DNA of 64,000 bases from Acrocarpospora corrugata (GTDB lineage Bacteria; Actinomycetota; Actinomycetes; Streptosporangiales; Streptosporangiaceae), in the NCBI RefSeq assembly GCF_009687845.1, contig NZ_BLAD01000055.1, positions 857 to 64,856 on the forward strand, given 5' to 3'. Positions 345 through 34,413 of the stretch are shown one piece after another (the first letter of the stretch is position 1; each line of letters opens with the position of its first letter). The notes under the pieces were generated by a model. That model was not told where the DNA came from and did no database searches. It saw only the letters and a program-made list of their open reading frames with translations. Position numbers and translations under genes: made by a program.

Positions 345-607
345 GACTGCTCCTGGTGGCCGGGGCGGGCGTCGGCGGTGACGTCGGTGGCGGCTTGGTG
401 GGCTCGGGCGGCCAGGCCGGGATCGCGGGTGTCGTTGGCGGCGGCGATGCGGGTCAGCAGGTCGGCTTTGGCGGCCTGGTAGGCGGCCTGTTCGTCAGGG
501 TCACGCTGTTCGGGGTGGGTGGTGGTCAGGCGGCGGCACCAGGCCAGCAGGTAGGCGATCTCGGTGAGGGTCGCTGGGGCGGACGGCCTCGGGTCGGTGG
601 GCGTCAT
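341..607 (-). CDS. small hypothetical protein in transposon operon
   Basis: The 88-residue protein is rich in Ala, Thr and Arg, with a predicted helical middle (LTEIAYLLAWCRRL) and no recognisable domain. Both ends overlap their neighbours by an ATGA: its start with the transposase stop, its stop with the ATPase start. This tight coupling makes a real gene likely. It occupies the place where an accessory subunit of the transposition machinery would be expected, but nothing in its sequence shows TniQ-like zinc motifs. Function unknown. Confidence 0.65.
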   Translation of the reverse strand: MTPTDPRPSAPATLTEIAYLLAWCRRLTTTHPEQRDPDEQAAYQAAKADLLTRIAAANDTRDPGLAARAHQAATDVTADARPGHQEQS

Positions 608-2058
608 TGCCGGTCACTGTCCTGTTCGCCTCCGGTGTCGTTGCTGGCGTCGCTGTGGTGGGCGGTGGGGGTGGGGCCGGGATCGGTGTCGCCGGTGCGG
701 GGTGGCGGCCCCGGCTCGAACAGCGCCGAATAGTTGATCTTCTCGGCGAGTCGTTCGTCGTGGGCGGCGCCCATCAGCGCGAGGTAGTCGATGCCGGTCG
801 GCGCGGGTTCGGTGTGCTCGCCGAGTGTCTCGGGCCGGGCCTTGGGGTGGGAGTGGCGTTTGATGGTGAACGGCAGCGCCGCGCCGAAGGAGCGGCCTTC
901 GTAGCGGACCTCGACCAGGTTCAGGTCGAAGGGGTCAAAGACCAGCTCGACTTGCCGTCCGACCAGGGCGGCGTCGACTTGGTAGGTGTTGCCGTGCAGG
1001 GAGACGGTGGCGGTCTTGGCGACCACGCGCAGCTGGCTCCACTTGAACGCCTCGCGCAGCTGGGCCGGGGTCGGGCGGGGCAGTGGCTCGGTGATGCCGT
1101 GCTGCCAGCGTTTCAGCGGCGCGGCTCCGGTCTGGGAGTGGACACGAACGTGGTAGTCGGTCTCGATCCAGGCCACCAGCAGCCGGTTCAGCCCGGCCAG
1201 GTCATCGGCTGCGGTGGTGGCGTCCCCGCCGAACTCGACCAGGAATTGCTCGCGCACGGTGCGGAAGAACCGTTCGATCTTGCCCCGGCCCTGGGGCCGG
1301 CCCGGGGTGGAGTGCACCAGTTTGATCCCCAGGCTGGCGCAGCCGCGCAACAGCCAGGAGTCGACGAACGCCGAGCCGTTGTCGACATAGACGCTGTCGG
1401 GGACGCCGCGGGCGGCCAGTGCGGGGCGCAGCGCCGCCGCGAGGCGGACGACGTCCTCGCTGAAGCCGAACCGGGCGGCCATCACGGCCCGGGAGTGGTC
1501 GTCGATGAAGGCGAACAGGTAGGTCTTGCGGCCGCCCAGCAGCGGGCCGTGCAGGGCGTCGCCGGTCCACAGTTCGTTGGGGCGGGTGGCCTCGAACCGG
1601 CCGAATGCCTCCGTCTCGGCCGCGGGTAGGCCGCCCAGTTCTTCGCGTTCGAACAACCGCTGCAGGGTGCGGGTGGAGGGCGCCCACCCCTGTGCGGCGA
1701 TCATGATGCGGCGGACCTGGGCCGCCGTCCGTTCCGGCTTTTCCCGTTTCAGGGCGGCGGCCAGCTCCAGGACGTGCGCGTCGGTGCGCAGTGGCACCTT
1801 GGCCGGGACCGGGACCAGTGCCTCGAACCCGCCCTCGCGCCACCAGCGCACCCACCGGTCCAGGGTGTTGCGCGAGATGCGCATGGTGTTGCCGAACGGG
1901 TCGGTGTGGGTCGCCTGGGCCAGTGCGCGGGCCCGGACGCCGCGCTGGCGGGTCGACAGGGCCGGGTCGATCAGGTCCTGGATCACTTCGTAGCGGAACA
2001 GGGCCATTCGGCGGGCTCGCTCGGCGCGCCGGCGGGCTTCCTCGTCGGCTTTGGTCAC
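604..2058 (-). CDS. DDE (rve-type) transposase, TniA/IS481-like
   Basis: The 484-residue protein has an N-terminal helix-turn-helix region (about residues 20-135) followed by a retroviral-integrase-fold catalytic core. The DDE triad is visible as D167 in WTGDALHG, D226 in YVDNGSAF and E262 in GKIERFFRTVRE. The C-terminal 200 residues resemble the beta-barrel region of Mu/Tni-type transposases. The GTG start has a GGAGG Shine-Dalgarno five bases upstream. It is followed by a small ORF and an ATPase, each overlapping by four bases, and preceded by a DUF6431 gene; transposase plus ATPase is the layout of Tni/Mu-like elements. The reading frame is intact, so the element may still be active. Confidence 0.9.
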   Translation of the reverse strand: MTKADEEARRRAERARRMALFRYEVIQDLIDPALSTRQRGVRARALAQATHTDPFGNTMRISRNTLDRWVRWWREGGFEALVPVPAKVPLRTDAHVLELAAALKREKPERTAAQVRRIMIAAQGWAPSTRTLQRLFEREELGGLPAAETEAFGRFEATRPNELWTGDALHGPLLGGRKTYLFAFIDDHSRAVMAARFGFSEDVVRLAAALRPALAARGVPDSVYVDNGSAFVDSWLLRGCASLGIKLVHSTPGRPQGRGKIERFFRTVREQFLVEFGGDATTAADDLAGLNRLLVAWIETDYHVRVHSQTGAAPLKRWQHGITEPLPRPTPAQLREAFKWSQLRVVAKTATVSLHGNTYQVDAALVGRQVELVFDPFDLNLVEVRYEGRSFGAALPFTIKRHSHPKARPETLGEHTEPAPTGIDYLALMGAAHDERLAEKINYSALFEPGPPPRTGDTDPGPTPTAHHSDASNDTGGEQDSDRQ

Positions 2059-10577: not shown

Positions 10578-11519
10578 CATCCGGCCCGGAGATGGGGGTC
10601 GATTCATCCGTAGGGGCGAAGCTGATCGACCAGGGGGCACCGGTTCCGTCTTGGAGACGAGGCGGGACCGCTCCTCGGCCAAGGGCCGTGAAGGGGATGA
10701 GCTTCCCGGGTGTCGCTTTCGCTGAGCAGACTCGATCGTCCTCGGAAAGTTCGCTGTCTCGACCGGTGTGGCGTTTTGCCGTTGCAGTCGGTGCGGCGGT
10801 TGAGAGCGACTCATCGGCGGGATCGCATCCTCGCACGTGAGGCCGGTTTCCTGTGATGCGGTGGCTGCCCCGACTCGCCCAAGGGCGAGGTGTGAAATAT
10901 GTGCGCGGCTTCGTCGTGGTGCGACTCCCTGGATCATCTGGCTGTGGTTCCCGCCGTTGACTACTTTCTCTCTCCGTCGCCTGGCCCTCGCCGGCCAGCT
11001 GGCCGGCCCTCGCTCGGTGCGCGGCAGCCTCGTGGCACAGCGGGAGCAGAACCTCGCCCACCCCGGTGACCTCGGGGCTTCATGATCCTCATGGCGTGTC
11101 CGGGCTCACGGTGCGCGTACGTGAGCGACGTCCACGAGTACCCCTGGAGCTTCCCGCGTCCGGGTTATACGTCTGTTCTCCTTGTAGGCGCGTGAACGGT
11201 GATTGGCGTCAATCTGAAACGCCGTAACGCTACGCGTAATCCTATTTGCCAATAGGACAATACGGGGTCGTCCGCTGTCGTTCGGGTAATTCCGTACGAC
11301 CTGCTTCCGTGCGTATGTCAAGCCTACTGGATTGACTTTATCGCGAGGCGCGCGAGCAGTTCATCGGGAGTCTGATTAGGTAAGCCTCTCCAGCCGTGGC
11401 GGCTATAAAAAAAGTCGCGAGTTCGCTTGCAATGGGTGACGACGCGAGACATGGTCGAGCCGCAAACGAAAACGCGCCGGACACACGGGCCGGAACGTAA
11501 CCGGAAAGGGGAACCGTCA
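10578..11519. other. gene-poor control region of the element
   Basis: Open frames here (10462-11061 minus, 10837-11085 plus, 11106-11321 minus, 11324-11527 minus) lack domains and Shine-Dalgarno sequences. Structure is visible instead. An 18-bp perfect palindrome, GCCGGCCAG-CTGGCCGGC, lies at 10990-11007. CCTATT-TGCC-AATAGG is at 11241-11256. GTCGT and ACGAC flank 14 bases near 11270-11300. From about 11160 to 11420 the DNA is clearly A/T-richer than the genes around it. This is the likely promoter, and possibly replication or transfer control region, for the plus-strand operon starting at 11520. Confidence 0.45.
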
Positions 11520-12734
11520 ATGACCATTCACGCCACCGAAATTCGCGCCATGGAAAGCGCGCCCGCCGACCTCGCGGGCATCACCGACACCGACGTTCCG
11601 ACCCACGCCCCGGACATCGCGCCCCACGTCGCCGACACCGTCGCTGCGCCGATGCAGGACGGGCAGGCGGGCGAGGGAACGAACGCCCGTCAGGACGCGG
11701 TGTGGAGGGCGCTGATGGCCAGCCCTGGTGGGTCGGCTACGGAGATTGGGGTCGCGGCCGGGCTCAGCCGGGCTATGACCAGCAAGATCCTTAACGGATG
11801 GGAATCAGAAGGGCGGGTCGTTCGCACTCCGGGCGGCAACGATGGTCCGAACCGAACCCGGACCCCCGACCGCTGGCACCCGATCTCACACGCGCCGGGA
11901 ACCACCGACGAGCACGTTCCGGATGCGGACGAGACTCCCACTGACACGGGCACCCCAGATGACCTTGAGACCGCGACCGAGTCACAGACCGGCCTGGTCA
12001 CTGGCCCCGACCTTAGCGCCGCCACCGACACCGTCCCCCACGAGGTCACCGACAGCAACGTCGGCGACCATCCCGAGGAGGGCGATGCGGAGTCGGCCGA
12101 CGAGCCGTCCGCCTACCTCGACGGGCAAACGGAGCTTGAGGAGGCGACGGACGGGCCGGATGCCGAACATGCCCCGGCGGACGTGATCCCATCCGACGCC
12201 GTACCCGACAGCGAGCCCGAGGTGGGCGCGGACACGGCGCTCGACGAAACGCCGCAGCAGGATGCGGATGAGCCGACGGCGGTCGAGGATCCGGAATGGG
12301 CGCAGGCACGGGCCGAACTGCTGGAGTTGGCCGATCTGATCCTGGGGGCGGTCACCGCCAAGGACGGCAACGATGACGCGGTTATGGCGTTGGGCCGGTT
12401 GGAGATGGCCATGGCGAAGGCGTCTCAGGTGCACCGTAGCGCCCGCGCGGTGCTGACCGGCACCACCAACGCGCCCGTCCGTACGGCACCCCGGCCCGGC
12501 GCGGGTAGCGGTGGGGGAGGGGTCCGTCCGGGGATGCTTCGGGATCGGGTGTTGGGCCATCTGATCGAGCACCCCGGTAAGGAGTTCACCCCGTACGAGA
12601 TCGGGCGCGTTCTGGACGCCTCCTCGGGTGCCGTCGCCAACGCGTTGGACCGGTTGGTCAGTCTGGATCAGGCGCAGCTGACGTGTGAGCGGCCTCGCCG
12701 ATTCGCCGCGCCTACCTCGGCCCTCGGCGACTGA
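11520..12734 (+). CDS. two-winged-helix element protein with acidic linker
   Basis: 404 residues from the ATG at 11520, which has AAAGGGGA upstream. The first winged helix spans about residues 55-105 (AVWRALMASPGGSATEIGVA, then TSKILNGWESEGRV). The second is at about 338-395 (LRDRVLGHLIEHPGKEFTP, then GRVLDASSGAVANALDRLV). Between them lie about 150 residues dominated by Asp, Glu, Thr and Pro, a flexible acidic linker, followed by a helix (ARAELLELADLILGAV). Proteins of this layout occur in actinomycete integrative elements. A DNA-bridging or regulatory role is inferred. It is the first gene of a plus-strand run reaching 17440. Confidence 0.75.
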   Translation: MTIHATEIRAMESAPADLAGITDTDVPTHAPDIAPHVADTVAAPMQDGQAGEGTNARQDAVWRALMASPGGSATEIGVAAGLSRAMTSKILNGWESEGRVVRTPGGNDGPNRTRTPDRWHPISHAPGTTDEHVPDADETPTDTGTPDDLETATESQTGLVTGPDLSAATDTVPHEVTDSNVGDHPEEGDAESADEPSAYLDGQTELEEATDGPDAEHAPADVIPSDAVPDSEPEVGADTALDETPQQDADEPTAVEDPEWAQARAELLELADLILGAVTAKDGNDDAVMALGRLEMAMAKASQVHRSARAVLTGTTNAPVRTAPRPGAGSGGGGVRPGMLRDRVLGHLIEHPGKEFTPYEIGRVLDASSGAVANALDRLVSLDQAQLTCERPRRFAAPTSALGD

Positions 12735-12878
12735 CCGCCCCGGCGGGCGGGTCTGCCACGGCCCGCCCGCCCAGGTCCGGCCCTTGAGCTTGCCCGACCT
12801 GGCTATCCGACAGAAACCCCGCATACCACCCAGTCCGTCATTCACCACCCCGATTCACCTGCCCAAGGAGGCCCTGTC

Positions 12879-13880
12879 ATGGCTCACGAGATTGAGATCT
12901 TCGACAACGGTTCGGCCGGTTTCGCCGCCGCTGGTAAGCCCGGCTGGCATCGGCTCGGTTACACCGCGCCTGGTCCGATGACCGCCGAGGAGCTTCTCAC
13001 GAACGCCCAACTCGCCGGATGGAACGTCCGGAAGGTTCCCGTCGGCGCGGTTCCTGACCCTGTCACCGGTCAGGTCGTCACCGCCGACGAGGACTTCCTG
13101 GTCGTCCGCACCAACCCGGTAACCGGGGAACCCGAACGGTTGGGCATGGTCGGCAAGGACTACAAGGTCGTACAGAACGAGGAGGTCACCGACTTCCTCC
13201 AGACGCTGGTGGACGAGTCGGGAGCCATCTTCGACACGGGCGGCTCGCTGAACGGCGGACGCCGGGTGTTCATCACCATGCGCATGCCCGAGCCGCTCAT
13301 GGTGGGCGGGTTCGACCAGATCGACCTCTACCTGGCCGCGTTCTCCCGGCACGACGGCTGGGGCGCGTTCAGCACGGTTGCGACGCCGGTACGCGTGGTG
13401 TGCGCCAACACCGAACGCGCCGCTCTGCGCAACCACGCCGCCAAGTTCACCGTCCGGCATACCGGCAACATCGCCGGACGGATCGCTGAGGCCCGCGAGG
13501 CACTCAAGCTGACCTGGCGTCATGGCGAGGCGTTCGCTGCCGAAGCCGAGAAACTCCTCGCCACCCCGATGGACCTCAAAGAGTTCCGCCAGTTCACGGC
13601 GGTCCTGCACCCCTTGCCCTCCGACGCCAAGGACCTCACCCGCAAGAACCACGAGTTGGCGATGCGGGAACTGGAGTGGCTGTTCGCGGCGGCTCCGACC
13701 CAGGAGCCCATCCGCAACACGCGGTGGGCCGCTTACAACGCGGTCACCGAGCGCCTGGATCACAAGAGCCCGGTGATCGGCAGCCGCGATGTGAAGGTCG
13801 TTCGCGCCGAGCGTGCCCTGCTGGACGACCACGCCAACACCAAGATCAAGAACCGCGCTTTCCAGCTGCTGACCGCCTGA
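12879..13880 (+). CDS. DUF932 (phage/plasmid-like, TIGR03299) protein
   Basis: 333 residues; AAGGAGG seven bases before the ATG. The signature is clear: FAAAGKPGWHRLG near the N-terminus, EDFLVVRTNP, then VVQNEEVTDFLQTLVDE, GGRRVFITMRMPEP, ATPVRVVCANTERAAL and a final DVKVVRAERALLDD. DUF932 proteins are typical of phages, plasmids and integrative elements. Their function is not established; roles in DNA metabolism have been proposed. Length is normal. It lies between the winged-helix gene and the operon of small paralogues, in the same direction. Confidence 0.92.
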   Translation: MAHEIEIFDNGSAGFAAAGKPGWHRLGYTAPGPMTAEELLTNAQLAGWNVRKVPVGAVPDPVTGQVVTADEDFLVVRTNPVTGEPERLGMVGKDYKVVQNEEVTDFLQTLVDESGAIFDTGGSLNGGRRVFITMRMPEPLMVGGFDQIDLYLAAFSRHDGWGAFSTVATPVRVVCANTERAALRNHAAKFTVRHTGNIAGRIAEAREALKLTWRHGEAFAAEAEKLLATPMDLKEFRQFTAVLHPLPSDAKDLTRKNHELAMRELEWLFAAAPTQEPIRNTRWAAYNAVTERLDHKSPVIGSRDVKVVRAERALLDDHANTKIKNRAFQLLTA

Positions 13881-14064
13881 CAGGTCCCGACAGCGGCGTC
13901 GGTCCACCGGCCTGGACAGGAGGGCGCGGTGGACCGGCACCCCGACCGGCCTGCGTGCTGACCCACCGACGGGCCCTAATCCGCCAGCCCTCATTGGGGC
14001 TCCGTTCGACCCTGCCTGACCCAGGCGGGGCACGGCAACCCGTTCCCAGTACAGGAGAGACCAC

Positions 14065-14529
14065 ATGACCCCGATCGTGAACATGGCCAAGAACCACTAC
14101 ATCCAGGCTTCCTTCGAGTGGTGCGAGGCAACCGGCAAGATCGCCTTCGCTTCCGACGAAGGCGAGGAGGTCCGTGCCGAGGACTTCAACCGCCTGGCCC
14201 TCGCCCAGTTCTCGTGCGTTTGGTGGCGGGATGTGGTCCAGCGGATCGATCACGAAGAACTCGACGGGGCCGAAGCCATCCTGCGTACCCGGCGTGATGC
14301 CGAACGCAGCCTGCTTCGTCGGAGCATCTGCTACGGCGAGTTGTTCGCCCAGGCCATGGAACAGGCCCGCCGTCAGGCGGCCCTGCAGTTCCTGAAGACC
14401 ACCCAGGAACTCGCCGACGCCGTGACCAACAGCGCTCCGTCGTCCCCCCAGCCAGCCATCCCCGCAACCGTCCCCTCAACGTCCGCCGACGACGCGGCGA
14501 CGCAGGCCAGCGGGCGCAATGACACGTGA
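14065..14529 (+). CDS. AQx4WW-family small protein A
   Basis: 154 residues; GGAGA upstream of the ATG. I do not recognise a named family. The core shares two blocks with the next two genes: ALAQFSCVWWRDVV (AQx4WW) and QAALQFLKT (AAxxFL), separated by about 55 mostly helical residues. The N-terminus is HYIQASFEWCEATGKIAF and the C-terminus is a Ser/Pro/Thr-rich tail. No signal peptide or membrane segment is present, so it is cytoplasmic. It begins a tightly packed four-gene cluster downstream of DUF932. Confidence 0.75.
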   Translation: MTPIVNMAKNHYIQASFEWCEATGKIAFASDEGEEVRAEDFNRLALAQFSCVWWRDVVQRIDHEELDGAEAILRTRRDAERSLLRRSICYGELFAQAMEQARRQAALQFLKTTQELADAVTNSAPSSPQPAIPATVPSTSADDAATQASGRNDT

Positions 14530-14590
14530 TCTGAGCCCCAAGCGCCACCCCACCTGCCCCGGATCGTCACTGACCAGAAAGGACCCGCAC

Positions 14591-15193
14591 GTGGACTCCA
14601 GTCCCCCTGGGGAATCTCCCGCCAATGCGCCCGATGAGACCACGCCCGAAGCGACGCCCATAGCGGTTAGCGGCGCGGAGATCAGCCCGAACGCCTGGCT
14701 GCACTCCCGGACGTGCGAGGCGATCGACGGCGCTCGGCGTATCTCCTACGCCTCGGCCGATCAGGCGTGTTCGGTGCTTCAGCGCGGTGATCGCATGACC
14801 TCCGAGGTGTTGTTCAGCGCCGCTCATGCTCAGGCGCTGGACGCCTGGTGGGGGCTGATCGCCGACCAGATCGACTTCAACGAGGCGGTTCCCGATCATG
14901 CGCTGCGCCGGATTCGGTCTTGGGCACGCCGCTATCTGACGGCCGAACCGGCCGCCACCGAGCCCGGAACCCTTTTCGATCACGCTCTCGCCCATGTCTC
15001 ACGCGCTGCCGCCCGCCACTTCCTCCAAACCAGCGGCCGACTGCTCGTCGAACACGCCAACCGGCGTGAGCGTACAGCCCGGGAGCAGGAATCGCAGACG
15101 ACGGCGAAGCGCCAGCAAGCTCCAGACCCCACACCCAGTCCCGGCTCCGGAGACGCAAACGCCCAGGACAGCCACCGAACGGAAAGGACGTGA
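14591..15193 (+). CDS. AQx4WW-family small protein B
   Basis: 200 residues from the GTG at 14591, which has AAAGGA seven bases upstream. An in-frame ATG at 14519 would add 24 residues and overlap the previous gene. It shares AHAQALDAWWGLIA (AQx4WW) and RAAARHFLQTSGR (AAxxFL) with proteins A and C, and also an SW-x4-YL segment (IRSWARRYL) with protein C. An Arg/Gln-rich, probably disordered tail follows. Function unknown. It is coupled by a GTGA overlap to protein C. Confidence 0.75.
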   Translation: MDSSPPGESPANAPDETTPEATPIAVSGAEISPNAWLHSRTCEAIDGARRISYASADQACSVLQRGDRMTSEVLFSAAHAQALDAWWGLIADQIDFNEAVPDHALRRIRSWARRYLTAEPAATEPGTLFDHALAHVSRAAARHFLQTSGRLLVEHANRRERTAREQESQTTAKRQQAPDPTPSPGSGDANAQDSHRTERT

Positions 15194-15783
15194 ACGCCAT
15201 GAGCGGGCCATTCGCGGAACAGACTCCCGACCACACCGCTGCCGCAGCCGCGCGGGGCTTGGGCGCGTATCCACTGCTGACGGCGGCCGAGCACGCGATA
15301 CACGATTACGAGCAGACCGCGCACGACCTTGCGCGCCGGATACTGCGAGGCCAGCGGGTCACCGCACGTCACCTTGTCTCCGGGCTACGCGCTCAGACCC
15401 TGAGCGTCTGGTGGCGCATGATCGCTCGGCACGGCCGGGAAGAAGTTCTCGACCCAGCCCATGTCCTGACGAGGTACGCCTCCTGGATCAGCGGTTACCT
15501 GCTGGGCGACGTCGCGGCCCCCGCCCTGTCCATCGGCGAGGTCATCGCTGACCCTGCCCTCGCGGAGGAGGACTTGGCGCTGATGCACATCGACTGCGGA
15601 TTCGCTCTCGTCCTGAGCTCGGCCGCCCGGGAGTTCCTCGCGAGAGCATCCGGCTTCTCGCCGGCCGGTCTCGCGGAGGGTCTTCCGCCAGATGCCGAAG
15701 ATCCCGCCGACCGGCGAGGGCGTGATGGGTCACAACCGCCGACCGCAGGGCTGACATCTGATGTCGAGGCAGGTCAGCAATGA
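15190..15783 (+). CDS. AQx4WW-family small protein C
   Basis: 197 residues from a GTG overlapping the previous stop; the ATG three codons later (15199) is an alternative. The shared blocks are LRAQTLSVWWRMIA (AQx4WW), YASWISGYLL (SW-x4-YL as in B) and SSAAREFLARASG (AAxxFL). The spacing between blocks is longer than in A because of an insertion around ALSIGEVIADPALAEEDLAL. No known domain. The three consecutive paralogues suggest local duplication and perhaps assembly into a hetero-oligomer (inference). Confidence 0.75.
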   Translation: MNAMSGPFAEQTPDHTAAAAARGLGAYPLLTAAEHAIHDYEQTAHDLARRILRGQRVTARHLVSGLRAQTLSVWWRMIARHGREEVLDPAHVLTRYASWISGYLLGDVAAPALSIGEVIADPALAEEDLALMHIDCGFALVLSSAAREFLARASGFSPAGLAEGLPPDAEDPADRRGRDGSQPPTAGLTSDVEAGQQ

Positions 15784-16196
15784 ACCGGGGCGGCGGCTGG
15801 GTGAACGCGGACGCCACGGCGGCTCTCGGAGGGCAAGACCACGCGCGGGCGGCGGAGGTGGAGTGGTTTCAGATGCTGGCCTGGCGCTGGAACGTCTCGC
15901 AAGCGAAGCAGATCACGGCTGGACGTACACCGAACGGGGTCATCACCACCGCTGAGTGGAGGGGGATGCTGCGGATGGTCGTCATCGATGAGATCCACGC
16001 CGAGAGCGTGGATCTGTCCGAGCCGCTGATCGCGGTACCGGTGCCCAGCGGAGGGCCATTGATCATCGATGGCTGGCACCGCCTTCACAAAGCTCTCAGC
16101 AGCGAAACCGAGACCCTCCGCGCTCACCTGCTGAGCGTGGACGAAGAGCTGACCTGCCGCATGTTCGGTGGGGAGAAGGGCCACGGCTGGCGGTAG
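15780..16196 (+). CDS. ParB-nuclease-fold-like small protein
   Basis: 138 residues; its ATG overlaps the stop of protein C (ATGA). The middle reads IDEIHAESVDLSEPLIAVPV then GGPLIIDGWHRLHKALSSE. That is close to the ParB/sulfiredoxin-fold signature DGxHRLxAA, in which the GxHR motif forms a nucleotide-binding or catalytic pocket. The N-terminal AAEVEWFQMLAWRWNVSQAK and the C-terminus are unfamiliar. It lacks the HTH needed for a partition protein. It could be a small enzyme acting on DNA or a nucleotide; I infer only the fold. Confidence 0.6.
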   Translation: MNRGGGWVNADATAALGGQDHARAAEVEWFQMLAWRWNVSQAKQITAGRTPNGVITTAEWRGMLRMVVIDEIHAESVDLSEPLIAVPVPSGGPLIIDGWHRLHKALSSETETLRAHLLSVDEELTCRMFGGEKGHGWR

Positions 16197-16543: not shown

Positions 16544-17440
16544 GTGGCGATTCCTGACTACCAGACGGTGATGCGACCAGTACTCGCACTCCACAGCGAC
16601 CACGCCGAGCATCGCCGACGCGACCTGGTAGCGGCGATCAGCAAGGAATTCCGCCTGACCGGCGCAGAAGAGTCCGAGGTCCTGCCCAGCGGGCAGAACA
16701 CGGTCCGCAGCCGAGTGGAGTGGGCGGTGACGTACCTCGCCAAGGCCGGTTTGCTCGATCGCACCGGCCGAGGGTCGACCCAGATCACCGAACGCGGCCT
16801 AACCGTGCTCAGCGACCACCCGTCCCGGGTGGACAACAACGTTCTGCGCGCCTTCCCGCAATTCCAGGAGTTCCTCGGCCGCAAGCGGGAGACGGTGCCC
16901 GTTCCGGCCGCAGTCGAGGACATCCCACCTCGCGAGGCGATCCCGCCGCTGGTGGACAACTGGCATCGGGCGGTAGCCGCAGACCTGCTCGATCGCCTCC
17001 GCGCCGCACCGCCGCAGTTCCTGGAACGAGCGGTGCTCAAGCTTCTGATCGCCATGGGGTACGGCGGCCCTGTGGGCAGCGTGGTCCATCTCGGCGGCTC
17101 GAATGACGGCGGCATCGACGGATTGATCCGCAAGGACCCGCTCGGCTTGGAGGTCGTCTACGTGCAGGCCAAGCGGTACAGGGAGGACGTTACCGTTCAG
17201 CGGCCGGCTGTGCAGGAGTTCGTCGGCGCCTTGCACGGCAAGCAGACCGACCGCGGCATCTTCGTCACCACCAGCCGCTTCTCGCCGGGAGCGATCGAGT
17301 ACGCCGCCAGTGTGCAATCGCGGATCATCCTGATCGACGGCCAAGAGCTCGGCAGACTCATGGTGGAGTACGGCTGCGGCGTCCAAACGGGCGACACGAT
17401 CTTGCTTAAAGAAGTCGACGAGGATTTCTTCGAAGACTGA
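16544..17440 (+). CDS. mrr: Mrr-type restriction endonuclease
   Basis: 298 residues from a GTG with GAGGCGG upstream. The N-terminal Mrr_N winged helix spans about residues 5-90 (YQTVMRPVLALHSDHAEHRR, then SRVEWAVTYLAKAGLL and TERGLTVL). The C-terminal Mrr catalytic domain shows ERAVLKLLIAMGYGG, the active-site GGSNDGGIDGLI and VYVQAKRY (D and QxK), then FVGALHGKQTDRGIFVTTS. Mrr enzymes cleave DNA carrying foreign methylation. The intact catalytic residues predict activity. It lies in an element that also encodes its own DNA methyltransferase at 30444. Confidence 0.95.
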   Translation: MAIPDYQTVMRPVLALHSDHAEHRRRDLVAAISKEFRLTGAEESEVLPSGQNTVRSRVEWAVTYLAKAGLLDRTGRGSTQITERGLTVLSDHPSRVDNNVLRAFPQFQEFLGRKRETVPVPAAVEDIPPREAIPPLVDNWHRAVAADLLDRLRAAPPQFLERAVLKLLIAMGYGGPVGSVVHLGGSNDGGIDGLIRKDPLGLEVVYVQAKRYREDVTVQRPAVQEFVGALHGKQTDRGIFVTTSRFSPGAIEYAASVQSRIILIDGQELGRLMVEYGCGVQTGDTILLKEVDEDFFED

Positions 17441-18557: not shown

Positions 18558-19427
18558 TCAGGCGGTGAATTCGTCCTGGCCGGGGCGTGTCAGCTGTGGC
18601 CAGGCGTCGGCGAGTTCGGCCAGCCGGAGCCGGGGCTGCTCTTCGCCGATCGGGAGCCAGATTGCTCCGGCTGGCCCGTGGTCCAGACCGGTGTGGACGG
18701 CGGTGGCAACCGGAATCTCGGTGTGGACGAGGAGCTTGCGCAGGTTGGCTTCCCTGGCTCGGCTGGGCAGCCACAGGAGGACGGGCGTCATGATGCCGGT
18801 CGCCTCGGCGAGGCTGGCGTAACCGGGCAGCTTCGCGGTGACCTTGGCGAGCGCTTCGCTCCCCGTGTCGTATTCGAGGAAGAAGTCGATTTCCTTGCCC
18901 TTCTCCCACCAGCGCCCATAGGCGTCGGGCCGGGCGAGGTCGCCCCAGAGCTTGGCGCAGCGGCGTTCCGCCCACCACTGCCTGACCTCGGCGCTGCCGT
19001 CGCTGTGGCGGGCATGGTGGTGGAGGTCGGCGAAGAAGTCGTTGACGCCCACCTGGTGCGCGGCCTTGGTGGAAACCGAGATGGCCATGGCCAGGTCCGG
19101 GTGGTAACCGAGTTCCTTGACCGTGGTGTCCGCCTTGAGGGCCAGCAGTTCAGCTCCCGTACGGCCGAGAACCCAGTGGTGCGGTGCGGAGCCGCCGTAG
19201 GGAGTCCAGGGCCGGAAGCGGGTGATGGTGTGCAGCTTGTGCAGGACTCCCAGGCGGCGCCGGGTGGGCTGGGGGAGGGTGAAGAAGATTCGCTGGATCT
19301 GGTGGGTGGTCAGGACGCGGTGCTCGTACAGGAAGGTGAGGATGTCGTAGTCGCGCGGGGTGAGACGTGCGGCGAGTTCGGCCATGGCGGTGGCGTCGAA
19401 TCGGGGCAGGCCGAGCGGGATACGGGA
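18558..19427 (-). CDS. replication-relaxation family protein
   Basis: 289 residues from the ATG at 19427; GGAGG lies ten bases upstream, and a GTG at 19433 is closer. The N-terminal winged helix (LTPRDYDILTFLYEHRVLTT, then IQRIFF and RRRLGVLHKL) followed by HWVLGRTGAELL matches Replic_Relax (PF13814). The domain is found in plasmid and ICE proteins thought to help relaxases or replication initiation at the origin. The C-terminal region (VNDFFADLHHHAR, then EIDFFLEYDTGSEALAKV) resembles a nuclease-like fold seen in the family. It lies in the transfer operon between the coupling ATPase and the wall hydrolase. Confidence 0.88.
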   Translation of the reverse strand, partial: SRIPLGLPRFDATAMAELAARLTPRDYDILTFLYEHRVLTTHQIQRIFFTLPQPTRRRLGVLHKLHTITRFRPWTPYGGSAPHHWVLGRTGAELLALKADTTVKELGYHPDLAMAISVSTKAAHQVGVNDFFADLHHHARHSDGSAEVRQWWAERRCAKLWGDLARPDAYGRWWEKGKEIDFFLEYDTGSEALAKVTAKLPGYASLAEATGIMTPVLLWLPSRAREANLRKLLVHTEIPVATAVHTGLDHGPAGAIWLPIGEEQPRLRLAELADAWPQLTRPGQDEFTA

Positions 19428-19483
19428 CATGGGCACAGGTCCTCCGAAAACGAGAGTGATCATGGTCGGCGTCGTCGTGAACT

Positions 19484-29517: not shown

Positions 29518-30447
29518 GTGACCACACATTCTTTCCCGCTCGCCCACCATCCGCTCGCTAGAGACTCCTGGCCCGTCGATCCCTCCGGCGCGAGGGAGGC
29601 AGCCGAGGTTCGCGCGGCTGAGGACGTGGTACGGCGCCGTCTTCCGTTGAGTGTGTGGCTGGCCACCTCCGGCAGCCAGTCCACGCCCGTCTGCGGAAAC
29701 GGCTGCTGCTTCCCCGTGACCAGCGCACTGTCGCGGCACCTGCTGTCGGCCTGCACACGGCTGGGTGAGTCGGTGGTCGACCTCAACGCCACCGACCCTC
29801 ACTTCGCTTCCAGTGCCCTGTCCATGGGGTGTCCCATCACCGCCACGTTCGCCGATACCCGCCTGGCCGACGTGGCCTGGAGGGCCTTGACGCGCGCGCA
29901 CAGCGTCCAGGCCCTACGAGCCGTCGATCTCCGTGTCGCGCGTCCACGGCCGACAAGCACAGATCCGCTCGTAAAAACGCGGCGCGGCACGGCGGCACTT
30001 GTCCTTCTCAGACAGTTGTGCCGAGTCAGCCCTTCGTTCAACGCTGTCGCCGAGGCGGCGGACTTGGGGGTGAGCCACCGAGGTGTCGGCCTGGCCACGG
30101 AGTTGCTGAAGCCAGGCGGGTACCTGGCGGTGGTCACCGGCCTGTACCAAGGGAATGGCCAGGTCGATGACCCGGTTCCGCGGATCATCTCGCAGGCCAA
30201 GCAGGCGGGGCTGACCTACCTGCAGCACATCATCGTTCTGCACGTCCCCGCGCGAGGTGAAGCGACGGCGCCCACGCCGACGGCAGCACTCTCGGATGAG
30301 AGAGAACTTTCGGAATGCCGAGCGCTTCCCGCCAGCACCCGCGTTCACTCCGACCTGCTCATCTTCGTCAAGCTCGCCCCGGCCGGCCCGCCTGACCCTC
30401 CAGGAGAGGACGTGCCCGTCCGGCGGAACGGGAAGGGGTCCCGATGA
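29518..30447 (+). CDS. degenerate DNA methyltransferase-like protein
   Basis: 309 residues from a GTG. It aligns by eye with the methyltransferase encoded immediately downstream: SVWLATSG against SVWATGQQ; VVDLNATDPHFASSALSMG against VVDPMCGIGTTLVEAAHLG; AALVLLRQL against AALVLTSPPYG; LLKPGGYLAVVTG against LLRPGGVAAITVR; HSDLLIF against HEDLLIF. The SAM-binding DPMCGIGTT and catalytic SPPY motifs are both lost, so it should be catalytically dead. The overlapping ATGA with the active gene suggests the two work as a heterodimer, as an accessory or specificity subunit (inference). Confidence 0.7.
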   Translation: MTTHSFPLAHHPLARDSWPVDPSGAREAAEVRAAEDVVRRRLPLSVWLATSGSQSTPVCGNGCCFPVTSALSRHLLSACTRLGESVVDLNATDPHFASSALSMGCPITATFADTRLADVAWRALTRAHSVQALRAVDLRVARPRPTSTDPLVKTRRGTAALVLLRQLCRVSPSFNAVAEAADLGVSHRGVGLATELLKPGGYLAVVTGLYQGNGQVDDPVPRIISQAKQAGLTYLQHIIVLHVPARGEATAPTPTAALSDERELSECRALPASTRVHSDLLIFVKLAPAGPPDPPGEDVPVRRNGKGSR

Positions 30448-31340
30448 ACGCCACGGCGGAGTCCACAGCGGAGTCGACGATGTCGGTCTGGGCGACGGGC
30501 CAGCAGCAGTCCCGTCACCAGCGCAAGGGCCGCTACCTGGCGGACTCGATGAAGCACCCGGCCAAGATGCTGCCCGCCATCGCCGCCACGGTAATCGACA
30601 CCTACAGCGCGTCCGGCGACCTTGTCGTCGACCCCATGTGCGGGATCGGCACCACCCTGGTCGAAGCCGCCCACCTCGGGCGGCGCGGGATCGGTGTGGA
30701 GTTCGAGCAGCGGTGGGGCGAACTGGCGCTTGCCAATCTGGCTCACGCGCGCCGCCAGGGCGCGCCGGGTTCGGGCCGGGTCGTCATCGGAGACGCCCGA
30801 GCCGTCACCGCGCTGCTCCCTGAGGTGGCCGGGCAGGCGGCGCTGGTTCTCACTTCACCTCCGTATGGTGCTGCCACTCACGGCCACGTCCGCTCCAGCC
30901 GCGACAGCGGCCAGCCTGGGGTTCACAAATGGAATCACCGCTATTCGCGCGACCGGGCCAACCTGGCCCATCAGAGCCTGCCCGACCTGCTGGAGGGGTT
31001 CGGCCGCATCCTGTCCGGCTGCGTTCAGCTGCTGCGGCCCGGCGGGGTGGCGGCGATCACCGTGCGTCCGTACCGCGATCGCGGTGAGCTGATCGACCTG
31101 CCGGGCCAGGTCCAGCAGGTCGCCCGGCAGGCAGGGCTATCGCTGGCGGATCGGGTCGTGTGCCTGCTGTGTGGGCTAGGAGAAAACCGGCTGCTGAACC
31201 GGGCCTCCTTCTTCCAGCTTCACGAGGCCCGAAAGGGCCAGGCGCGCGGCTTGCCGATCCACGCCACGGCACACGAGGACCTACTGATCTTCCGCAAGCC
31301 TCCAGCCGAGGCCGGGGATCTCCCGGACGGGGCGCGGTAG
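30444..31340 (+). CDS. DNA methyltransferase (SPPY type)
   Basis: 298 residues. Motif X-like MKHPAKMLPAIAATVID is followed by the SAM-binding motif I (VVDPMCGIGTTLVEAAHLG) and the catalytic motif IV (LVLTSPPYG). Then come LLRPGGVAAITVRPY and a C-terminal HEDLLIFRKP. SPPY is usual for N4-cytosine or N6-adenine exocyclic amino methylases. The order X-I-IV without a long insertion points to a compact enzyme whose target domain is short or supplied by a partner, perhaps the degenerate paralogue it overlaps. No linked cognate endonuclease is adjacent; Mrr lies 13 kb away in the same element. It probably protects or marks element DNA. Confidence 0.88.
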   Translation: MNATAESTAESTMSVWATGQQQSRHQRKGRYLADSMKHPAKMLPAIAATVIDTYSASGDLVVDPMCGIGTTLVEAAHLGRRGIGVEFEQRWGELALANLAHARRQGAPGSGRVVIGDARAVTALLPEVAGQAALVLTSPPYGAATHGHVRSSRDSGQPGVHKWNHRYSRDRANLAHQSLPDLLEGFGRILSGCVQLLRPGGVAAITVRPYRDRGELIDLPGQVQQVARQAGLSLADRVVCLLCGLGENRLLNRASFFQLHEARKGQARGLPIHATAHEDLLIFRKPPAEAGDLPDGAR

Positions 31341-31944: not shown

Positions 31945-33489
31945 GTGGCCAACGGAACCACCTACAAGACCTGCACCTGCCGCGACGAGCAAGGAAAACG
32001 CCTCGGCACCAGCTGCCCGAAACTGCGCCGACCCGGTCGCAGCGGCGAACGATGGAACAGCACCCACGGCAAATGGGCTTACCAGCTGGAGCTGCCCGCG
32101 CACGCCGACGGCAGGCGACGCAACCCGCTCCGGCGTAGCGGATTCGACACCCTTGAAGAGGCCGAGAACGAACTCGACCACGCCCGCGGCCTGCTGGCCC
32201 TGGACGACGACCCCCAGGCGAAACGGAAGATCACCGACCTGATGCTGTCGGTAGTGAAAGACACCAGGAAACTGCCCGACACCGAGGAGGTACGGCGCAA
32301 GGTCCGCACCTGCCAAGACCTCAACCGGCAGATCACCGTCGCCGAATGGCTGCAGGAGTTCCTGGCCCGCAAACGCCGCATCGAAGCCACCACCCGCGCC
32401 GGTTACGCCTCCCACGTCCGCCTCTACCTCACCCCGTACCTGGGAGAAGTCCGGCTGGATCGCCTGCGTGTCTCCGACATCGCGGGCATGTTCGACGCCA
32501 TCGAGGAGTTCAACGACATCATCGCGGTCGAGCGCGCCAGCGGCGACCCGGAACGCGTCGCGAAGGTGAGATACCGGCGGCCGGTCGGGCCTCCCACGAT
32601 GCACCGCATCCGCGCCACACTGCGGCACGCGCTAAACATCGCCATCCGGCAAGACCGGCTGCTGGACTTCAACCCCGCCGCCGTCGTCGAACTCCCACCC
32701 GCAGCCCGGCCCAAACCCGTGGTGTGGACCGAGGAGCGGGTGACCCAATGGCGGGCCGACTATTCGGCCCGTACCGAGGCCGCGCGCCGGATCAAGGCCC
32801 GGGTGGATGTGATCGGCTTCTTCATCTCTGTCCCGCGCCCGTCGCCGGTCATGGTGTGGACACCGGCCCACACCTCGGCGTTCCTGGCCCGCGCCCGCCG
32901 CCACCGCTTGCACGTGCTGTACCGGCTGATCGCTCTGCGGGGATTGCGTCGTGGCGAAGCAGTGGGCCTGCGCTGGCCGGACGTCAACTTCTCGGGAGCA
33001 ACGATCGGCGTGCATTGGCAGATCACCCAACTCGGCTGGCAGCCCGTCCAGGGCAAGCCGAAGACCGACGCCAGCGACCGCGTCATCGCCGTCGACACCG
33101 AAACGATGAAACTTCTCAAGAAACACCGCGCCAGGCAGGCCGAGGAACGCCTCGCCGCGGGCGACGACTGGACCGACAGCGGGTTCGTCTTCACCGATGA
33201 GCTCGGCCGGCCGCTGCATCCGCAGCACGTCACCGACCAGTTCTACTGGCTGGCCTTCGAAGCCCAGCTCCCACCCGTAAGGTTGCACGACCTGCGGCAC
33301 GGCGCGGCGTCCCTCATGCTCGCCGCCGGAGTGGAGTTGAAGATTGTGCAGGAGACGCTCGGCCACGTTTCCTCGACCTTCACCCGCGACACCTACACCA
33401 GCGTCTATCCGGAGGTCGCCGCGGCTGCCGCCGAGTCGACGGCAGCCCTCCTGGCCATTCCCTCCTCACCGGCCCCTCCCCGCGGATAA
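31945..33489 (+). CDS. int: tyrosine site-specific integrase
   Basis: 514 residues from a GTG. An N-terminal arm-binding region (CTCRDEQGKRLGTSCPKL, then WAYQLELPAHADG) is followed by a core-binding SAM-like domain (WLQEFLARKRRIEATTRAGY). The catalytic domain contains R in LIALRGLRRGEAVGLRW, HxxR in LHDLRHGAASLMLAAG, then TLGHVSSTFTRDTYTSVYPE with the H and the nucleophilic Y. This is the pSAM2-like actinomycete integrase type, which recombines with the 3' ends of tRNA genes. The tRNA-Lys 850 bases downstream, 3' end facing the integrase, is the evident target. Confidence 0.95.
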   Translation: MANGTTYKTCTCRDEQGKRLGTSCPKLRRPGRSGERWNSTHGKWAYQLELPAHADGRRRNPLRRSGFDTLEEAENELDHARGLLALDDDPQAKRKITDLMLSVVKDTRKLPDTEEVRRKVRTCQDLNRQITVAEWLQEFLARKRRIEATTRAGYASHVRLYLTPYLGEVRLDRLRVSDIAGMFDAIEEFNDIIAVERASGDPERVAKVRYRRPVGPPTMHRIRATLRHALNIAIRQDRLLDFNPAAVVELPPAARPKPVVWTEERVTQWRADYSARTEAARRIKARVDVIGFFISVPRPSPVMVWTPAHTSAFLARARRHRLHVLYRLIALRGLRRGEAVGLRWPDVNFSGATIGVHWQITQLGWQPVQGKPKTDASDRVIAVDTETMKLLKKHRARQAEERLAAGDDWTDSGFVFTDELGRPLHPQHVTDQFYWLAFEAQLPPVRLHDLRHGAASLMLAAGVELKIVQETLGHVSSTFTRDTYTSVYPEVAAAAAESTAALLAIPSSPAPPRG

Positions 33490-34268: not shown

Positions 34269-34341
34269 ACCTTGCGATCTCGCCTCGACAACGAGGTCCC
34301 AAATCGGGAGGAATCGGCAGGTCAAATGGGGTCAAAGGTGG

Positions 34342-34413
34342 TGGGGCGCCAGGGATTCGAACCCTGAACCTACGGATTAAAAGTCCGGAGCTCTGCCGTT
34401 GAGCTAGCACCCC
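34342..34413 (-). tRNA. tRNA-Lys (anticodon TTT), probable attachment site
   Basis: Cloverleaf on the minus strand: acceptor GGGGTGC pairs with GCGCCCC (one G-T pair), D arm GCTC/GAGC, anticodon stem CCGGA/TCCGT (closing A-T) with loop CTTTTAA giving TTT, T arm CAGGG-TTCGAAT-CCCTG, discriminator A. CCA is not encoded. The 3' end points at the integrase, the standard geometry for element insertion. The tRNA is complete because the element supplies or preserves its 3' end. Confidence 0.95.

Follow-up and report, generated by a model that had tools for sequence, protein, structure and literature searches.

Four consecutive genes in a 64,000-nucleotide (nt) stretch of Acrocarpospora corrugata DNA (assembly GCF_009687845.1, contig NZ_BLAD01000055.1; the whole stretch is called the window below) appear, from sequence comparison, to form a conserved and co-inherited module of a family of integrative and conjugative elements (ICEs) of the Streptosporangiaceae that carry a type IV secretion system (T4SS). 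The first three genes, A, B and C, encode related proteins, here called WW proteins, and the fourth, D, encodes a small protein predicted to adopt the fold shared by ParB and sulfiredoxin (Srx). Three orthologous WW copies are kept in fixed order across ICEs of three genera, with two copies or a variant third in two more. Together with a winged-helix protein and a DUF932 protein encoded upstream, A to D are tentatively read here as a module for establishment or maintenance of the ICE that lies near its transfer region, a reading that is preferred but held with limited confidence.

All four genes lie on the plus strand: A (P0001; 14065..14529; 154 residues, ATG start), B (P0002; 14591..15193; 200 residues, GTG start), C (P0003; 15190..15783; 197 residues, GTG start) and D (P0004; 15780..16196; 138 residues, ATG start). 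B and C, and C and D, overlap by 4 nt, while A and B are 61 nt apart; an alternative longer B frame, beginning at ATG 14519, overlaps the A stop codon. Each WW protein carries an AQ-x4-WW motif (AQFSCVWW in A, AQALDAWW in B, AQTLSVWW in C) and, 58, 60 and 77 residues away respectively, an AAxxFL motif (AALQFL, AARHFL, AAREFL). A preliminary description of this DNA had reported three consecutive, coupled or closely spaced genes of these lengths sharing both motifs at a spacing of about 55-85 residues, and all of this stands. It had also given B and C a common SW-x4-YL motif, which is present with a spacing of three residues (SW-x3-YL) and not four. Pairwise BLASTP, each a single comparison, gave E-values of 2e-9 for B and C, 2e-7 for A and B and 4e-4 for A and C, and when 70 WW domains selected by profile were aligned, the two tryptophans proved conserved in 67 and 70 of them and the phenylalanine of AAxxFL in 69. 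A, B and C are accordingly true paralogues whose similarity goes beyond chance; BLASTP is joined by tree clades in the assignment of A and C and by a model of the protein core in that of B.

In Pfam, NCBIfam, PHROGs and PADLOC the WW proteins had no match that passed a curated cut-off or reached E <1e-3, in keeping with the earlier remark that the three belong to no named family. The best match in Pfam, NCBIfam and PADLOC was that of A to NCBIfam LapB (E 0.01, far under its cut-off), and when 30 diverse WW members were compared with Pfam and PHROGs, only matches of single members were returned, at E 0.01 or worse. An AlphaFold model of the B core, built from six sequences (three from the window and three from Herbidospora), predicts four helices (residues 4-35, 42-67, 72-88 and 99-135) with a predicted local distance difference test score (pLDDT) of 92.6 and a predicted template modelling score of 0.85, and assigns AQ-x4-WW to helix 2 and AAxxFL to helix 4. 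Against the Protein Data Bank (PDB) the best Foldseek E-value was 0.078, and VIA-align returned assorted bundles with a best Z of 9.3 (TRiC), below the Z of about 13 that the tool's note expects for helical bundles. Because the Foldseek E-values were weak and the VIA-align rows were a mixture of bundles, no structural relation is claimed. A PDB profile search with the WW family gave nothing at E up to 10. Of the checks that had been proposed, pairwise comparison relates all three proteins, while the WW model gave no standout fold family. The WW proteins are best described as an unnamed family, four-helical in the predicted structure, with no library match above noise; they are called undescribed from the family libraries alone because the family has no name by which the literature could be searched.

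Among 46 loci fetched (L numbers), 37 contained a WW match. Counting the window, the arrangement DUF932-A-B-C-D was found in 12 loci (the window, L021, L024, L096-L100, L106, L107, L109 and L110), bearing out an expected co-occurrence with DUF932 in other ICEs; the order A-B-C was fixed in all 12 of the loci with the three copies, and D followed them in every one. The contig of L109 starts at DUF932, and L106 has a second C. Ten of these loci belong to one genus (g7), the window to a second (g1) and Herbidospora to a third (g15). Five further loci have two WW genes or a different third, namely A-B-D in L105, L108 and L103, which are of another genus (A is broken in L103), and A-B-D-C'-D in L022 and L023. 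A single WW gene precedes D in L025 and, without DUF932, in L026, and follows it in L112 and L113. Other stretches have WW genes but no D (among them L101, L102, L104, L111 and L114-L117, some at contig ends), or D but no WW (L127-L135). The preliminary description had taken singly occurring homologues with no conserved operon as evidence against its proposal; for the most part this is not what was found, since 12 loci keep A-B-C, ten of them in one genus, although single-WW loci do exist. In L024 (6273-7321) A is frameshifted and D is cut short, running into an integrase-like tail, as in a decaying element.

In a tree of 73 WW domains, built from 113 columns and subject to a program warning that long branches meet, copies from the same position fall together. 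The A clade holds 18 rows (support 96/92) and the C clade 16 rows (99/98), and the B rows form a moderately supported group (87/94 for 17 rows, 88/64 for 20). Within the position groups the window pairs with Herbidospora each time (100/98, 100/99 and 100/96). Because of this grouping and these pairings, A, B and C are taken to have diverged before these ICE lineages, and a recent tandem triplication was rejected. The proposal of a local triplication retained in one operon therefore survives as to paralogy and the operon-like run with D, but not as to a local or recent origin. Distances over 10 loci were correlated among A, B and C at r 0.90-0.96, between these and D at 0.77-0.83, and between the four and DUF932 at 0.71-0.76. 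The ratio of nonsynonymous to synonymous substitution rates (dN/dS) was below 1 for A to D in nine locus pairs (0.10-0.37 for the first WW gene, 0.18-0.46 for the second, 0.18-0.81 for the third and 0.09-0.46 for D), and was 0.04-0.21 for DUF932. Mean identity over the 10 loci was lowest for C (48%), the fastest changing, followed by A (57%), D (64%), B (66%) and DUF932 (86%). Together these comparisons point to an old, co-inherited orthologous triplet under purifying selection.

The same data bear on whether A to D are a small selfish, addiction-type module, or dispensable cargo that shares a conserved spot without joint function. This would fit a WW copy number that ranges from one to four, a gene order that varies (D before WW in L112 and L113), the broken copies of A in L024 and L103 and of D in L024, and the weak match of one of the 30 WW members to the addiction-module antidote model PF21716 (E 0.033). 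The fixed order of A-B-C in 12 of 12 loci, the purifying selection and the co-inheritance all speak against it, and A to D of the window matched no toxin or antitoxin family in Pfam or NCBIfam; such an explanation is considered very improbable.

In its distribution the WW family appears to be restricted, as far as searched, to one bacterial family. A 16-domain profile found it in 30 of 345 Streptosporangiales genomes, all of them Streptosporangiaceae, in 10 of 70 genera. A search with P0002 in a 200-genome sample of the order listed 12 genomes: the own genome, six with the whole or part of the neighbourhood (among them Herbidospora cretacea NBRC 15474, also of the Streptosporangiaceae) and five with weak or unrelated frames. 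Across the class, a first profile found only the own genome among 394, and a broader one matched 12 of 394, of which two (the own genome and G022) are in the same family and ten were marginal (E 4.6e-5 to 7.9e-4). These ten were treated as chance matches, nine being 45-46 residues inside frames of 1,058-1,095 residues and one containing internal stops. The first-look searches scored 10-12 candidates per genome, so that misses are possible. Relatives of B and C were not found on plasmids, nor those of B in viral contigs. In a 200-genome sample a Replic_Relax relaxase match (E 1e-40 or better) occurred in 71 genomes and D in 18, suggesting that WW marks a minority of these ICEs and that D is more widely spread.

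The D protein is proposed, on the strength of its predicted structure, to be a distant member of the ParB/Srx (ParB-CTPase) superfamily, a divergent branch of a known fold. Its AlphaFold model (13 sequences) has a pLDDT of 81.8 overall and above 90 in the core. The 34 VIA-align matches listed were all ParB, Noc, KorB, PadC, Srx, SerK, SbnI or uncharacterised structural-genomics entries (Z 2.2-6.2), the best being SerK 5x0g (Z 6.2, rmsd 2.1, 69 aligned); the tool cautions that a Z <8 may mean merely a common arrangement. Membership was accepted notwithstanding, because the rows agree with one another and the P-motif is present. Within the DGWHR segment of this motif D, G, H and R are kept in 36 of 36 family members and W in 35, and a W-x-W...A segment specific to D is kept ahead of the fold core. 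Sequence and Foldseek comparisons were weaker: the best Foldseek E-value was 0.069, with one unrelated acetyltransferase among 50 rows; the D profile against PDB sequences gave SbnI as its best match (E 0.02, over IDGxHR); the single sequence found no PDB match; no Pfam family was matched at E up to 1; and one PHROG, of unassigned function, was matched at 4e-5. The earlier description of D as ParB-like is therefore supported by predicted structure, though not by Pfam.

D shares its fold and an invariant GxxR (DGWHR) with the ParB-CTPase superfamily (ParB-N, Noc, KorB, PadC, SerK/SbnI and sulfiredoxin), but differs in its length of 138 residues, its lack of a Pfam match, its own W-x-W...A segment and its encoding with WW proteins in these ICEs. 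Identity with the canonical ParB of ParABS systems, which combines a ParB Pfam match with an HTH and a C-terminal dimerisation domain, was ruled out by that length and the absence of a ParB Pfam match. The DGxHR loop is also shared with the SerK/SbnI kinases, which have a catalytic glutamate; a kinase role was considered for D but is not claimed. PMC12704722 describes the fold as binding CTP, ATP or GTP, uses R-to-A mutants of the GxxR P motif as controls negative for nucleotide binding, and reports very short single-domain members in phages. No D was found by tblastn in annotated phages and plasmids, and relatives in 17 viral contigs were mostly distant and without a WW profile match. Should the module serve establishment or defence, D would contribute a stand-alone ParB-fold protein in a defined operon context to the question that PMC12704722 opened.

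Upstream of A lies P0005 (12879..13880, plus strand), a full-length member of DUF932/TIGR03299 (phage/plasmid-like protein) directly preceding the module, as had been stated before (PF06067, 1.2e-60; TIGR03299, 7.2e-66; PHROG 1221). It exceeds the curated cut-offs of both Pfam (205.6 bits vs 23) and NCBIfam (222.5 vs 110.7). In a 200-genome sample WW genes come after each of the six DUF932 genes that reach 81-100% identity to that of the window, itself one of the six; the close DUF932 clade with WW neighbours is 81-90% identical to that of the window. Profiles detected neither WW nor D in six loci whose DUF932 is at about 46% identity or lower, but distant DUF932 matches (24-26%) were seen near WW in L102 (24%) and near D in L131. 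At the head of the module, P0006 (11520..12734, plus strand) encodes a MarR-like winged helix with a long linker (MarR_2 PF12802, 7.2e-9), and a homologue stands upstream of DUF932 in 18 of 19 DUF932-WW loci, the window included, the nineteenth being L109 with its truncated contig. Between DUF932 and A, directly 3' of the DUF932 stop codon, the plus strand has a GC-rich, terminator- or attenuator-like inverted repeat (13898..13938; arms 13898-13909 and 13927-13938). With arms of at least 10 nt, at most one mismatch and a position within the first 75 nt after DUF932, such a repeat was found in 16 of 19 loci (the window and 15 others), as against 1.3 expected in shuffled sequence. The arms are GC-rich and vary in sequence between loci, with complementarity preserved. 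Because the conserved hairpin separates DUF932 from A, A to D may be a transcription unit apart from DUF932. No sigma-70-type promoter was found at 11200-14600; other promoter types were outside that search.

These upstream features raise the alternative that the module is regulatory, the WW proteins acting as partners of the winged-helix protein and controlling genes for excision, transfer or replication of the ICE together with D, which would sense a nucleotide. The constancy of the winged-helix gene ahead of DUF932 and the conserved hairpin before A are both in its favour, as are proteins of L115 and L117 in which the winged helix and a WW domain are fused, and L112, which unites winged-helix genes, a VWA_CoxE gene, D and WW. 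The fusions, however, are confined to distant members, no conserved operator was identified, and A to C carry no recognised DNA-binding domain of their own in Pfam; one of the 30 WW members gave a weak Lsr2 match. Regulation in this sense is rated unlikely, if by no means negligible. In the fusions the WW domain is C-terminal to the MarR-like winged helix (L115:7928-8725, L117:2062-2895), and the VWA_CoxE protein (L112:4096-5928) occupies the DUF932 position of its ICE.

To the right of the module, minus-strand genes encode an NlpC/P60 protein, a Replic_Relax protein (PF13814), a VirD4-like protein, a VirB4-like protein (P-loop TraG) and PrgI, with a sub-threshold TrbL match in the same run. 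PMC5357655 lists PF13814 as relaxase superfamily MobC. A tyrosine integrase gene (31945-33489) lies close to tRNA-Lys (34339-34413). Since integrase, relaxase, VirD4-like coupling protein and VirB4-like genes are all present, the element is regarded, from its gene content, as an ICE with a T4SS, in line with the mobile-element setting suggested before. A repeat of at least 14 nt of 34300-34413 was not found elsewhere in the window, that is, the left attachment site was not found, and the left end of the ICE is out of view; an Rfam scan returned tRNAs alone. Within the ICE and near the integrase is an N6/N4-type DNA methyltransferase-like gene (30444-31340), which matches only the end of the Pfam model.

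The relaxase gene of the window (18558..19463, minus strand; PF13814, 2.3e-45) converges on the module, and does so in 19 of 20 fetched loci in which WW, then D, and a relaxase match are in view; the one exception, in L123, is a decayed element remnant, and relaxase fragments occur there on both strands. The distance from D to the relaxase match is 1.2-5.1 kb in 16 of 17 loci measured and 7.7 kb in L026. From this near and convergent position the module may be a candidate for leading-region genes, which lie first behind oriT on the transferred strand. Leading-region islands of conjugative plasmids, which serve anti-defence or establishment and are described in PMC11541004, offer a partial parallel: DUF932, ParB-like and SSB genes cluster near a relaxase gene on two related plasmids, DUF932 and ParB-like genes lie near MobF on a third, and the ICE module adjoins the relaxase gene. 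The differences are that no SSB is seen beside A to D and that the string DUF is absent from the main text of PMC11541004. The plasmid comparison draws on 12 hand-chosen stretches with DUF932, eleven actinobacterial and one recorded as Variovorax, with ParB-like genes in 8, DUF4192 in 5 and SSB in 4 of them; a same-direction MobF relaxase gene lies within 5 kb downstream of DUF932 in 5. In the literature searched, ten papers name DUF932, none of them in its title or abstract, and no paper has it together with 'leading region'.

Genes of defence type also adjoin the module. Outside its conserved part, the window carries a gene for an Mrr-type type IV restriction endonuclease (16544..17440, plus strand; Mrr_cat 1.4e-34, Mrr_N 1.9e-24, PADLOC mREase_IV 1.3e-65), where most relatives have a candidate defence gene of PADLOC type PDC-S14; no Mrr homologue was found at E 1e-5 in the 46 loci. 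Of 17 relatives in which DUF932, WW and this stretch can all be seen, 15 (L021, L022, L025, L097, L110 and ten more) have a PDC-S14-type gene between D and NlpC. Five members run against PADLOC all matched; four of them contain a RAMA domain that scores above its cut-off, and one has a weak N-terminal GIY-YIG match; the other ten were found by a profile made from four of these five, and seven of the 15 match its N-terminal half alone. RAMA domains read modified DNA. L100 and L024 lack PDC-S14, as do L026 and the lineage-2 loci, while L125 and L126, with contigs that start at the WW gene, carry it.

It is conceivable that the module serves defence or competition between elements, A to D and the nearby nuclease (PDC-S14 or Mrr) restricting phages or rival elements, with WW and D sensing or signalling and the nuclease cutting. 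The frequency of the neighbouring genes and the fast evolution of C (a mean identity of 48% compared with 86% for DUF932, and a dN/dS of up to 0.81 for third copies) agree with this. PDC-S14 is, however, missing from the window, L100 and L024, lies 3.2 kb away from D in L103, and in seven of the 15 relatives matches the N-terminal half of the profile alone; A to D have no PADLOC match, and the module is found in one bacterial family alone. PDC-S14 is encoded on the other strand, in the last part of the transfer operon, and so is not co-transcribed with A to D, which also counts against a defence function. As the closest candidate defence gene, PDC-S14 is a neighbour in most relatives, but a separate gene which A to D do not match. 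Defence is likewise thought unlikely, to much the same degree as regulation.

For the establishment or maintenance reading, the following course is envisaged. A, B and C would most likely be soluble adaptor subunits that bind one another, D or both. D would probably bind nucleotide through its GxxR (DGWHR) P-motif and act as a switch, and the WW proteins would be the helical partners of D. Jointly with the winged-helix protein and DUF932, A to D would most likely establish or maintain the incoming or excised ICE around conjugation, acting on ICE DNA through protection, processing or regulation. The module is best regarded as a variation on ICE accessory or establishment modules, not as a proven separate kind of system, and the defence and regulatory readings are close rivals. 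The preliminary description had suggested a hetero-oligomeric complex, perhaps for element maintenance, anti-phage action or DNA processing; the surrounding genes point to a role in DNA conflict or in establishment beside the relaxase. Should the module turn out to serve establishment or defence, DUF932, which is widespread in mobile elements and has no function assigned in the libraries used, would gain a set of testable partners.

Several observations weigh against establishment or maintenance. Complex formation, nucleotide binding and the role itself are what we infer. A defence role would account for the adjacent PDC-S14 and Mrr genes no less well. Linkage by itself may explain why the distances of A, B and C are correlated, and the 12 A-B-C loci are not independent, because ten are in one genus (g7), L097 and L098 even sharing a genome. 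Nor are three copies needed, since L025, L026, L112 and L113 have one, and WW and D are each seen without the other within fetched stretches. DUF932 and A to D may not simply be one transcript. For the leading-region comparison, 7 of the 12 plasmid stretches have no relaxase in view, and two of the other five (H1 and H2) are close relatives.

In a stronger version, A, B and C could not replace one another and would all be required as subunits of one helical hetero-oligomer. Gated by nucleotide-bound D, it would form a conjugation-linked machine of a new kind on incoming ICE DNA next to the relaxase, and DUF932 and a nuclease that senses modification (PDC-S14 or Mrr) would be associated with it. 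This version is regarded as rather improbable. Because of the single-WW loci, a hetero-trimer cannot be obligatory for the whole WW family, though possibly so in the A-B-C lineage.

Two minor observations concern surroundings and DUF932 elsewhere. At the left edge of the window a TniA-like transposase gene (rve, Mu-transpos_C; 604-2058, minus strand) is accompanied by more minus-strand frames. Among the matches listed (60 of 111 records), DUF932 lies <2.4 kb from the record end in 11 of 20 Streptomyces plasmid rows (H29-H34, H36, H38-H40 and H65). A telomere-proximal position would fit a gene that enters end first; one record (H5, the same as H30) is linear, and it has a ParB-like gene near DUF932.

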